64,000 nt of DNA from Candidatus Blochmanniella pennsylvanica str. BPEN (GTDB lineage: Bacteria > Pseudomonadota > Gammaproteobacteria > Enterobacterales > Enterobacteriaceae), in contig NC_007292.1 of assembly GCF_000011745.1 (NCBI RefSeq), forward strand, positions 558,001 through 622,000, in the 5' to 3' direction. The position numbers were made by a program, and so were the translations under genes. Below are positions 9,703 through 16,687 of this stretch, piece by piece; the stretch's first letter is position 1; each line of letters opens with the position of its first letter. The notes under the pieces are model-generated. The model saw nothing but the letters and a program-made list of their open reading frames with translations, was not told the DNA's origin and searched no databases.

Positions 9703-11205
9703 ATGCTAACACATATTAATGTATCACAACCTAGTTTTTTTATTTATGATTATGAAACTTTTGGCATCAATCCAGCACTAGATAGACCAGCGCAATTTGC
9801 CGGAATTCGTACGAATAACACATTAAAACCTATAGAAAAAGAAAAAATCTTCTTTTGTCGCTTATCAAATGATTATCTCCCCGATCCGCAATCCGTCCTC
9901 ATTACTGGAATCGCTCCTCAAGATACCTTGCGTCATGGATTGATTGAATCTGAGTTCGCTCGTCGTATTCATCAACTATTTTGTATCCCTAAAACTTGTA
10001 TTCTTGGATACAATAATATTCATTTTGACGATGAATTCAGTAGAAACATTTTTTATAGAAATTTTCATGACCCTTACTTATGGGCTTATCAGCGAGGAAA
10101 TTCCCGATGGGACTTATTACACGTACTACGTGCCTGTTATTCACTATGTCCAAATGGCATTACATGGCCATTGAACATTCAAAATAAACCCAGCTTTCGT
10201 CTAAAAGATTTAACACAAGCAAATGCTATAAAACATCTCAGCGCACATGACGCTATGTCGGATGTCTACGCTACTTTAGAATTAACAAAATTAATAAAAG
10301 AAGCTCAGCCACAATTATTTCAATTTCTATTTGATCATCGTACCAAATATCAATTGCAAAAAATAATCGATCTAGATACCATGAATCCTTTGATATTTAT
10401 CATGAACAAAATAAATAATAAATATAAAAATTTTATAACTTATATAGCTCCAATTTCTCGACATCCCATCAATCCTAACATTTTAATAGCATGCGATTTA
10501 AATGGTAATATAGATAATTTAGTTAATTTAAATATCAATACGATATATCAAAAATTGTACTCTAATCACATAACGATATATGATATTTTAAAAAAAATAC
10601 CACTACGATTTATTCGATTAAATGCGTGCCCTATATTAATACCAATAAACTTTTTTGAAAAAAACAATATTAACACTACTTACACCATGCAGCTCTCTAC
10701 CAATTATCGATACTGTTTAAAAAATTTAAATTTTATTAGAATGCATGAAAATAGCGTCTATCTACGTAATAAAATAAATACACTATATACCATTATAGGA
10801 TCTTACATCAATCAAAAAAATATATATAATAATCTTCATGTAGACAGTCAATTATATCATAGACTCTTCAATAATTCTGATCGTAAAATAATTGAAAGCA
10901 TCCGTAGAACTCATTCAAAAGAGTTGAAAAATTTATGCACTGACCACGTTGATACTCGTTTAAAACCACTCTTATTTTACTATAGAGCCCGAAATTTTCC
11001 TAATACTTTAAATTACCAAGAACAAAAAAAATGGTTGAACTATAAAAAAAATAAATTATTTAATACAGATCAATCAAAATCTTATAACGATAAACTAAAT
11101 CAACTTCTGTCAATCTATAAATATAATGATCAAAAAATTACACTTCTACATTCATTACAAAAATATTATCAATATCTTTATGAAGTTCATTTTAATTTTT
11201 ATTAA
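9703..11205 (+). CDS. sbcB: Exodeoxyribonuclease I
   Basis: Processive 3'-to-5' single-strand DNA exonuclease of the DEDDh family, used in recombination and mismatch repair. 500 residues against ~475 in E. coli. The N-terminal exonuclease domain is well kept: DYETFG (Asp16, Glu18), LDRPAQFAGIRT, VLITGIAP, CILGYNNIHFDDEFSRNIFY, NSRWDLLHVLRACY and the HDAMSDVYAT motif with the catalytic His and Asp. The SH3-like and C-terminal helical parts are diverged and rich in Asn, Lys and Tyr, but keep LLFYYRARNFPNTLNYQEQ near the end. Intact frame with a divergent tmaR upstream. Its his-side neighbourhood matches the E. coli order. Confidence 0.94.
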   Translation: MLTHINVSQPSFFIYDYETFGINPALDRPAQFAGIRTNNTLKPIEKEKIFFCRLSNDYLPDPQSVLITGIAPQDTLRHGLIESEFARRIHQLFCIPKTCILGYNNIHFDDEFSRNIFYRNFHDPYLWAYQRGNSRWDLLHVLRACYSLCPNGITWPLNIQNKPSFRLKDLTQANAIKHLSAHDAMSDVYATLELTKLIKEAQPQLFQFLFDHRTKYQLQKIIDLDTMNPLIFIMNKINNKYKNFITYIAPISRHPINPNILIACDLNGNIDNLVNLNINTIYQKLYSNHITIYDILKKIPLRFIRLNACPILIPINFFEKNNINTTYTMQLSTNYRYCLKNLNFIRMHENSVYLRNKINTLYTIIGSYINQKNIYNNLHVDSQLYHRLFNNSDRKIIESIRRTHSKELKNLCTDHVDTRLKPLLFYYRARNFPNTLNYQEQKKWLNYKKNKLFNTDQSKSYNDKLNQLLSIYKYNDQKITLLHSLQKYYQYLYEVHFNFY

Positions 11206-11225
11206 AAATTAGTTTTTAATTTTTT
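11201..11225 (+). terminator. Possible terminator of sbcB
   Basis: ATTAAAAA (11201-11208) and TTTTTAAT (11213-11220) pair around TTAG and are followed by TTTTTC. The stem overlaps the sbcB stop codon (11203-11205). It has no G-C pair in the stem, so its strength is doubtful. Confidence 0.35.
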
Positions 11226-11724
11226 CATATATACATAATTCGGTATACTTTAATCTAAACTAGAATATATGAAAAAATTTGCAAAAAAAAATCACATAAT
11301 TTACACTAACAATATACACTATATTACATTTATATCATGCGAACATACGCAATATATAATTACATATTCGGATTATTACATGATTACTTCTCAACTATGC
11401 AAGCTAATACTTGCAAAATAATTTTTAATTTAATTAAAACATTAATTATATACATATATAAATAAAATAACTTTTATAACATTCAACTCTATACAAATTT
11501 AATTATATTCGTTAATATATTAAGGTAATGAAAAATTTTCAATAGGAAGACTGTACTTCATATGTTAATTTATCATCATTACCCTGACTAAATCCTTCAA
11601 ACACATTTAATAATAGAAATCTTTTTTAATATTTTGTTTATTAAAAATATCAAAGGTACTTCTGTTGCAAGAATTTTAAAAAAGTATTTAGTAATGGAAA
11701 ATTGTTGACATAAGGTAAAATATC
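11206..11724. other. Spacer sbcB-hisG, leader region of the his operon
   Basis: 519 bases. Holds an inverted repeat (11218-11232 with 11265-11279, a perfect 15-bp stem AATTTTTTCATATAT and a 32-base loop) and, further on, the relic of the his leader peptide at 11562-11591. No clear GC-rich attenuator hairpin follows the relic; only an 8-bp AT-only stem (TTTTTAAT with ATTAAAAA) near 11622-11647. Confidence 0.6.
11562..11591 (+). CDS. hisL: Relic of the histidine operon leader peptide
   Basis: A ten-codon frame reading MLIYHHYPD then stop, 133 bases before hisG. The E. coli his leader peptide is a 16-residue peptide with seven consecutive histidines ending HHPD-stop, and the bases around the stop (CCTGACTA then TCnTTCA) also agree with that leader. 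Here only two adjacent histidines remain, with tyrosines next to them. I infer a decayed attenuator peptide; whether it is still translated is unknown, because the nearest AGGA is about 14 bases upstream. Confidence 0.55.
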   Translation: MLIYHHYPD

Positions 11725-12624
11725 ATGCTGGATAGATCGAGGTTACGAATAGCAATACAAAAATCAGGAAGATTGAGCAAAGAATCCCAACAACTTCTTG
11801 AACAATGTGGAATTAAAATTAATTTACAACAACAACGTCTATTAGCGTTTGCAGAAAACATGGCTATCGATATAATGCGAGTGCGTGATGATGATATTCC
11901 TGGTTTAGTTATGGACGGTATAGTAGATTTAGGTATTATCGGAGAAAATGTATTAGAAGAAGCCTTATTAACGAGACGATCGCAAGGAGATAATCCTTGT
12001 TACATTATGTTACTCCGATTAGATTTTGGAGATTGTCGGTTATCTATGGCCTTACCCATAGATGAACCATGGAATGGTCCAAAATCCTTACAAGGGAAAC
12101 GAATTGCCACTTCATACCCACATCTTCTGAAACAATATTTAGATAAATTAGGTATTCATTTTAAATCTTGTTTACTAAATGGCTCAGTAGAAGTAGCACC
12201 ACGTGCTGGATTAGCAGATGCAATTTGTGATCTAGTGTCTACCGGAGCTACCTTAGAAGCTAATGGATTACATGAAGTAGAAGTAATCTATCGATCTAAA
12301 GCATGTCTTATTCAACGATCTGGAGAATTATCCAACATAAAACAATCACTGATAAACAAATTAATAATTCGTATTCAAGGAGTAATCCAAGCCAGGGGAT
12401 CTAAATACATCATGTTGCATGCCCCTGCTGAACAACTAGAGGAAATTATTAATTTACTACCTGGAGCAGAAAGTCCAACAGTATTGCCATTAGCAGGCAA
12501 TCAACATCGTGTGGCAATATACATGGTAAGTAATGAAACATTATTTTGGGAAACAATGGAAAATTTAAAAAATCTTGGAGCTAGTTCTATTTTAGTATTA
12601 CCAATAGAAAAAATGATGGAATAA
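11725..12624 (+). CDS. hisG: ATP phosphoribosyltransferase
   Basis: First step of histidine synthesis: joins ATP and PRPP. 299 residues, the length of the long-form enterobacterial HisG. Seen: [13 protein letters not shown] at the start; [17 protein letters not shown] and [12 protein letters not shown]; the PRPP-binding stretch [19 protein letters not shown] (about 170-190); and the C-terminal regulatory domain (from ~225) that binds histidine for feedback inhibition. The ATG at 11725 is preceded by AAGGT. First gene of a tight operon; hisD begins 4 bases after its stop. Confidence 0.97.
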
Positions 12625-15030: not shown

Positions 15031-16101
15031 ATGAATCATAAAGTTTTATTTATAGATCGTGATGGAACCTTAATTAATGAACCAAAAGACAATTTTCAAA
15101 TTGATTCTTTAGACAAATTCTCATTGGAACCATATGTGATTCCTGCTCTTATAGCGTTAAAAAATATAGGTTTTGAATTTGTTATAGTTACTAATCAAAA
15201 TGGATTAGGAAGTGCTTCATTTCCTAAAGAAAAATTTGATAAGCCACATCGTCTAATGATTCAAATATTTCAATCTCAAGGTATTAAATTCAATCAAATA
15301 CTAATTTGCCCTCATCTTCCAGAAGAAGAATGTAGTTGTCGTAAACCAAAAACTGCATTAGTAAATTCTTGGCTAATCGATAACAAATTAAATAAATTTA
15401 ATAGTTATGTTATCGGAGATCGAAATACTGATATGATTTTAGCAACTAATATGGATATTCAAGGAATACAATATAATCGTACTAATTTTGGTTGGAAAAA
15501 AATTAAAAACTATTTAACGCAACGTCACAGATCAGCACATATTCATCGCATCACTGAAGAAACTAATGTAGACATCACGATATGGTTAGATCAAAATAAT
15601 AAAAGTTACATTAATACTGGGATTAATTTTTTTAATCATATGTTACAGCAAATAGCTGTGCATTCTGGATTATGCATGAATATTACGGCAAAAGGCGATT
15701 TACATGTAGACGATCATCATACTGTAGAAGATACAGCTTTAACATTAGGAAAAGCTTTAAACACTGCATTGGGCAACAAATGTGGCATCGGAAGATTTGG
15801 ATTTACCTTGCCTATGGATGAAAGTATTGCGCAATGTGTATTAGATCTTTCTGGACGAACATACTTTCACTATGAAGCTAACTATACTTTTCAAAAAATA
15901 GGAGATCTTAGTACTGAAATGATAGAACATTTTTTTCGTTCATTATCTTCAAAAATGGGTTGTACTTTACATTTACAAGCAACTGGCAAGAATGATCATC
16001 ATAAAGCAGAAAGTTTATTTAAATCTTTCGGGCGATCGTTACGTCAAGCCATTTACATAGACAATAACAATATACCAAGCTCTAAAGGAACATTGCTATG
16101 A
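15031..16101 (+). CDS. hisB: Bifunctional histidinol-phosphatase / imidazoleglycerol-phosphate dehydratase
   Basis: Two activities of the pathway in one chain, as in enterobacteria. The N-terminal half is a HAD phosphatase (FIDRDGTLI nucleophile motif near residue 7; zinc loop [24 protein letters not shown]). The C-terminal half is the dehydratase (from ~170) with metal-binding histidine motifs [27 protein letters not shown] and [16 protein letters not shown]. 356 residues, full length. A strong AGGAG precedes the ATG. The stop overlaps the hisH start as ATGA. Confidence 0.97.
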
Positions 16102-16687
16102 ATATAGTTATCATAGACACCAACTGCTCTAATTTATTATCTGTAAAAACCATGCTACATAGATTAGGACACAACCCAATAATAAGTGACAGAGCTGATG
16201 TTATATCTCAGGCGGACAAACTGTTTTTACCAGGAGTAGGCACTGCTTCATCCGCGATGAAACAATTAAAAAAAAAAATCTAATTACATTGATACAAAAT
16301 TGTACTAAACCAATATTGGGTATTTGCTTAGGAATGCAGTTATTTGGATCTATAAGTTCTGAAAATAATGGTGTAAACACTTTAAATATTATTCATACAC
16401 CTGTCAAACGTATGCAATACCACGGTTTTCCCTTGCCACATATGGGATGGAATACTATTACTATTCCAAAAAAACATTTTTTATTTTATGGCATAAAAGA
16501 AAATGATTATTTTTATTTTGCACATAGTTATTGCATAAAAGTATGTTCTGTAACAATTTCTCAAACAAATTACGGACAATTATTTAGTTCGGTTATAAAA
16601 TATAAAAATTTTTTTGGTGTACAATTTCATCCAGAAAAATCAGGAATGCCCGGTCAACAATTAGTAAAAAATTTTTTGGAGATATAA
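16098..16687 (+). CDS. hisH: Imidazole glycerol phosphate synthase glutaminase subunit, frameshifted at poly(A)
   Basis: Glutaminase that feeds ammonia to HisF. The sequence is split: frame one (16098-16283) encodes [13 protein letters not shown] to SAMKQLKKK, then stops; frame two resumes just after and runs to 16687. The break is an 11-base A run at 16268-16278. One added A would restore a single 196-residue protein, the same length as E. coli HisH, with the sequence across the joint aligning without a gap ([20 protein letters not shown]). The Cys nucleophile ([11 protein letters not shown]) and His/Glu ([10 protein letters not shown]) are in the second part. Everything else is well conserved, so I infer that it is still expressed by polymerase or ribosome slippage, or else that the A count is a sequencing error. 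It could also be a very recent pseudogene. Confidence 0.85.

Follow-up and report, generated by a model that had tools for sequence, protein, structure and literature searches.

A probable relic of the his attenuator upstream of hisG in a Blochmannia genome

The region at 11544-11591, ahead of hisG in a Blochmannia genome, is very probably what remains of an enterobacterial his attenuator. The leader gene is recognizable by alignment, by position and by its relatives; its ancestral start and most of its histidine codons have gone, and none of the 14 genus genomes examined retains the terminator hairpin or U-tract. A promoter-like block, the ribosome-binding region of hisG and the HisG protein are conserved. 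The window is the whole stretch of DNA analyzed, G000:C1:558001-622000 (64,000 bases), from a single-contig genome of 791,654 bases; positions are counted within it, and the features are collected in Table 1.

Table 1. Features in and around the his leader relic; change counts are from nine genomes
Feature	Position	Strand	Basis
Promoter-like block TATACA - 17 bases - TAATAT (relatives: TAAAAT or TATAAT)	11490..11518	+	Conservation; promoter role putative
Decayed his leader peptide gene (hisL), 16 codons including stop	11544..11591	+	Intact leaders align without gaps; 32 changes in 48 columns versus 54 expected
Ancestral start codon position, now AGG	11544..11546	+	Codon alignment; codon table of nine genomes
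Short ORF left over, MLIYHHYPD-stop; two His codons at 11574-11579	11562..11591	+	The ORF of the earlier note
B arm remnant after the leader stop	11592..11602	+	2 changes in 11 columns versus 13 expected; alignment to outgroup TAGTCTTTCAGGC
C arm remnant, ATAGAAATC versus CTGGAAGAC	11610..11622	+	7 changes in 13 columns versus 13.8 expected, P 0.03; alignment
Positional homologue of D, E and F arms and U-tract; hairpin gone	11623..11700	+	71 changes in 78 columns versus 78 expected; no covariance model match; no GC-rich hairpin with T-run in 14/14 loci
hisG, first gene of the eight-gene his operon	11725..12624	+	Operon runs to 18824, the end of hisI

THE LEADER GENE AND ITS SURROUNDINGS

An earlier note on this DNA took a short ORF upstream of hisG (ATG TTA ATT TAT CAT CAT TAC CCT GAC TAA) for a relic of the his leader peptide gene, and the ungapped alignment and the spacing to hisG bear this out. 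Bases 11544-11591 match the intact his leaders of Sodalis-allied bacteria and free-living Enterobacterales codon by codon and without a gap, as expected of a homologue of hisL; an intact 16-codon leader, MNNVLFNHHHHHHPD-stop, aligns over 48 bases with RKTVLHMLIYHHYPD-stop of the window. The match extends to flanking bases on both sides of the short ORF: upstream, GTACTT (11553-11558) pairs with the V-L codons of intact leaders; downstream lie TCxTTCA and the C arm remnant.

The same codon alignment overturns one detail, that the ATG at 11562 is the leader's start. The ancestral start falls 18 bases earlier, at a position that reads AGG, GGG, GAA, AAG or TAA across nine genomes; in the window this AGG and the following codon (11547-11549) form a possible ribosome-binding sequence. 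On the alignment, the leader frame is older and longer than MLIYHHYPD, and the ATG is an internal codon of it, which may or may not serve as a start. The loss of most histidines is confirmed: Salmonella and E. coli have a run of seven and the close outgroups six, and the window has two His codons, with no run behind the original start.

The relic occupies the place of a his leader, between sbcB (9703-11205) and hisG. From leader stop to hisG there are 133 bases in the window, 132-134 in L002-L005 and 126-143 in L016-L023.

Farther upstream, bases 11486-11518 show 7 changes in 33 columns where 36 are expected from hisG fourfold sites (nine genomes, P < 1 in 20,000). The putative promoter within them was not listed by a stock promoter scan of the gap. 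It is the best conserved block of the sbcB-hisG gap, and in Blochmannia floridanus (L011, letter-identical to L015, record BX248583.1) TATACA and TAAAAT can still be read at equal spacing.

DECAY ACROSS RELATIVES

The relic is present in close relatives, and in graded states. Within Blochmannia, HH is retained in L001-L005, L007 and L008; L006 is frameshifted, L009 reads HN and the start is missing in L010. The leader end and the B-arm stretch are absent from L011 and L013, and L012 and L014 are not clearly readable. A tree of hisG and hisD places the nine genomes whose relic can be read in a single clade (support 91/95). The relic survives in that clade and would have been erased in others by deletion or drift.

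In the wider set of loci, L019, L020, L022 and L023 have six His codons and a terminator, and L016 has five His codons. L017 reads YHRYHH, with a terminator; L021 (Palibaumannia cicadellinicola) reads KPYYHHKPD and L065 reads NIYYHHKPD, both with an intact terminator. L065 is the locus of G051, a symbiont genome of 759 kb, and scores 85.9 bits with the Rfam family His_leader (RF00514) and 137.9 bits with R1, our own covariance model described below. In L018 (Sodalis sp. Ffu), at bases ~1320-1475, the start codon and reading frame are lost and the terminator hairpin stands; this is the opposite order of decay, and the operon there is predicted to be locked low. G026 (L062) has, upstream of hisG, an AT-rich leader in which YYHH can be read; the terminator-like hairpin there is weakened. 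This 1.1-Mb genome gives a sub-threshold His_leader trace in the right place (26.4 bits), and L062 is an independent half-decayed his attenuator.

Across the family, all 43 genomes that reach 2 Mb and have a clear hisG contain His_leader; 42 score over the cut-off, and the exception, G077, falls below it and lies at a contig edge. Of the 25 genomes of up to ~1.2 Mb that have hisG, only 2 exceed the cut-off. The survey ran stricter filters over more than 40 genomes, and the 25 small genomes were rerun with looser ones; the count leaves aside G052 (2.4 Mb), whose hisG match is weak and interrupted (E 1.8e-4), together with genomes in which hisG had no match. In G041 hisG is split and completeness is low.

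RATES OF CHANGE AND THE POSSIBILITY OF REUSE

Parsimony changes were counted in nine of the 14 genomes (L001-L009) and compared with hisG fourfold sites of like base; L010-L014, where the leader or the way it aligns is uncertain, were set aside. The short ORF has 17 changes in 30 columns versus 34 expected (P 0.0003), distributed as 7, 4 and 6 over the codon positions and so not concentrated at third positions. Between promoter and leader (11523-11543) the rate is neutral, with 26 changes in 21 columns versus 20 expected; the stretch homologous to the terminator is also neutral, unlike the relic core. Set against other intergenic DNA, the 41 bases 11562-11602 lie in the lowest 8.0% of 28,341 windows from 62 other gene gaps in four genomes, a background that includes tRNA genes and short or broken genes (the test used the 63 gaps, out of 90 with 120 bases or more, that were anchorable in every one of the four).

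These comparisons give moderate evidence that the bases of the relic core are under constraint. A slow ORF core and slow post-stop bases are not expected of a purely dead relic, and they count against the explanation that we prefer. The main rival accordingly supposes that the relic has been reused: leader core and B-arm stretch would be selected as a 5' UTR element (a small ORF, or RNA stability or binding) that sets hisG expression without termination. In its favour, slow evolution is local, confined to the promoter block, the leader core, the B-arm stretch and the ribosome-binding region, with neutral change between them; the spread of ORF changes over codon positions suggests constraint on bases and not on the peptide. 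Against it, the lowest 8% is not extreme, although tRNA genes and short or broken genes form part of the background; the ORF is broken in L006 and its start lost in L010; leader end and B-arm stretch are missing from L011 and L013; and no fold is conserved (consensus energy -4.07 kcal/mol). RNAalifold proposed a helix joining the leader start to the hisG ribosome-binding region, which was rejected: 252 of 1000 shuffles do as well, and it is weaker in L006-L009. We regard reuse as rather unlikely. A narrower version, in which one Blochmannia clade selects the bases of 11562-11602 as a 5' element of the his messenger around His5-His6, the pair also kept last in another symbiont whose terminator still stands, seems to us quite unlikely; the attenuator would then have lost its parts in an order that can recur, and what was left would serve anew with no termination.

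ATTENUATOR ARMS AND TERMINATOR

What follows the leader stop supports the preferred reading, a relic whose attenuator no longer works. His_leader finds no match at E up to 1 in any of the 14 genus genomes, none thus scoring above the gathering cut-off, and a search of 11206-11760 against Rfam at E up to 10 returned no His_leader, only chance matches of snoRNA type. The Trp, Leu and Thr leader families are likewise missing from all 14. Model R1 was built from an alignment (A1) of ten leaders of Sodalis-allied bacteria and other Enterobacterales, nine of which keep the hairpin and two of which (L018 and L039) are themselves damaged. It recovers five of five control attenuators outside the training set at 125-164 bits, one of these, L065, being closely related to training row L021; with filters off and E up to 10, it finds nothing upstream of hisG in the 14 genus loci.

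The earlier note had remarked that no GC-rich attenuator hairpin follows the relic, and this holds. The fold z-score there is 0.15 in the window (-1.1 on a slightly different stretch), and none of the 14 genus loci has a T-run preceded by a hairpin that contains even a single G-C pair; neither the E:F terminator hairpin nor its U-tract is found. Over the 14 post-leader stretches z runs from -2.9 to +1.2, ten of them within -1.4 to +1.2; six of seven outgroups lie at -6.0 to -7.2, and the seventh, the damaged L039, at -1.2. The values for L007 (-2.9), L008 (-2.1), L003 (-1.5) and L001 (-1.1) count against the preferred explanation. The in silico check for anti-terminator folds that the note had called for did not find the alternative A:B/C:D and B:C/D:E pairings: at z 0.15 the window's stretch does no better than shuffled sequence, and the nine-genome consensus holds none of the ancestral helices and has an energy of -4.07 kcal/mol, compared with -35.1 for intact leaders. 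The sole terminator-like site of the gap lies upstream of the relic: a hairpin TGCAAG...CTTGCA at 11398-11415, then T-rich, which is probably the end of sbcB transcription.

A working canonical attenuator was rejected on the missing His_leader and R1 matches and the missing G-C hairpin with T-run. It may still be supposed that a minimal attenuator works here, with two His codons and an AT-rich or unusual terminator. In the trp leader two adjacent control codons can be enough, and in L065 and L021 a two-His leader coexists with an intact terminator. Counted from the Pro-Asp end, the codons that survive in the window and in these two loci are the same pair, His5 and His6 of the seven-His numbering. 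A figure of two or more control codons is reported (PMC1183508), and in Salmonella forced stalling at His4 to His6 is reported to give the highest read-through (PMC4046918), a range that includes the window's codons. Against this supposition stand the 14 loci without hairpin and T-run, the empty covariance searches, the neutral evolution of the terminator-homologous stretch and the loss of the ancestral start codon, and we hold it highly improbable. The shared codons fit a final working stage in which two control codons remained and the terminator had yet to go; chance is possible too, because L017 kept other positions.

COULD THE LEADER BE A CHANCE ORF?

Of 20,000 dinucleotide shuffles made from the 519-base sbcB-hisG gap, none contains the pattern ATG...CAY CAY (0-1 codon) CCN GAY stop and 17 contain CCTGACTA; both patterns were picked after the sequence had been seen. 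The ungapped 48-base alignment took 13 leader loci, selected by a Pro-Asp-stop near hisG or a retained terminator. For 11 of them the best placement is 11544, with 20-28 identities of 48; L029 and L065 place elsewhere. Identities to the window are 28/48 for L019 and L020, 27 for L022, 26 for L024 and 25 for L023, and for these five 0 of 2000 dinucleotide shuffles attain the same identity at the right distance from hisG. The remaining leaders give a weaker or null test; for L017, L021 and L037, 62-93 of 2000 shuffles do as well at that distance. Gapped local alignment to single outgroups was dropped as main support, the signal being too weak: 8-26 of 500 shuffles do as well for L019, L020, L022, L023 and L027, which is weakly significant, and for L016, L017, L018, L021 and L039 the best alignment falls outside the leader. 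That a random short ORF in AT-rich DNA should resemble a leader is hardly credible and was rejected on the shuffle tests: the weak gapped alignments and the several leaders without significance in the ungapped test speak for it, and against it stand the five leaders that no shuffle equals, a spacing to hisG the same as in relatives, and relatives that carry the relic with intermediates from intact to lost.

KNOWN SYSTEMS AND WHAT IS ADDED

With the his attenuator of E. coli and Salmonella (RF00514, hisL) the relic shares its location between promoter and hisG, the Pro-Asp-stop end, the spacing to hisG and remnants of the B and C arms. It differs in having two His codons, a lost start, no D-F arms, no terminator or U-tract and no RF00514 score. 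Also close are G051 (L065) and Palibaumannia cicadellinicola (L021), with the same two His codons (HH-x-PD) in a reduced genome; they keep terminator and arms, whereas the window has no terminator left.

Loss of attenuation in symbionts is a known event. Buchnera is described as having no leader sequences and as not using attenuation (PMC3091783), and eroded thr leaders are described in Serratia symbiotica (PMC4122931); as in the window, amino-acid operons are retained there and leaders lost. In those accounts the leaders are stated to be absent or eroded, whereas Blochmannia shows a readable intermediate and a species series. The present case is a well-preserved one, and what it adds is that intermediate, that series and a retained, slow-evolving core. 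Searches of the open-licence literature turned up no account of such a his leader relic in Blochmannia, which is no proof of absence.

Attenuation loss in nutritional symbionts is usually scored as present or absent; here the intermediates are legible at the level of single bases, and two routes can be distinguished. In one the sensor is worn and the terminator kept (L018, L021, L065, L017); in the other (Blochmannia) the terminator is lost and some of the sensor remains. The operon would be locked low by the first route and high by the second; opposite consequences for the host's histidine supply are therefore predicted.

THE HIS OPERON AND ITS CONTROL

With the terminator lost and the promoter kept, transcription would enter hisG at all times, whatever the charge of histidyl-tRNA, and the operon would be permanently derepressed at the attenuation step. 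Removal of the E:F hairpin from untranslated leaders is reported to have restored high levels of hisG messenger (PMC4046918). The control left would then be feedback inhibition of HisG, which probably still answers to supply, because HisG is full length and keeps its C-terminal domain: 235 of 299 residues are identical to E. coli, 60 of 76 in the C-terminal regulatory domain, which aligns end to end with PDB 1h3d. The earlier note had suggested that attenuation decayed while the operon was kept, perhaps leaving output unresponsive to supply; the first part stands on the leader relic and the missing terminator, and the second overreaches, given the retained regulatory domain.

Farther along the operon, a frameshift at 11 consecutive A (poly-A tract at 16268) splits hisH (16101-16687). 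All four genomes compared have a tract of this length, and the portion preceding it shows a coding pattern of change (14, 5 and 36 by codon position); both halves therefore look to be under selection, as would fit rescue by transcriptional slippage. In other Blochmannia lineages hisH is called a pseudogene in a 2025 paper (PMC12779916).
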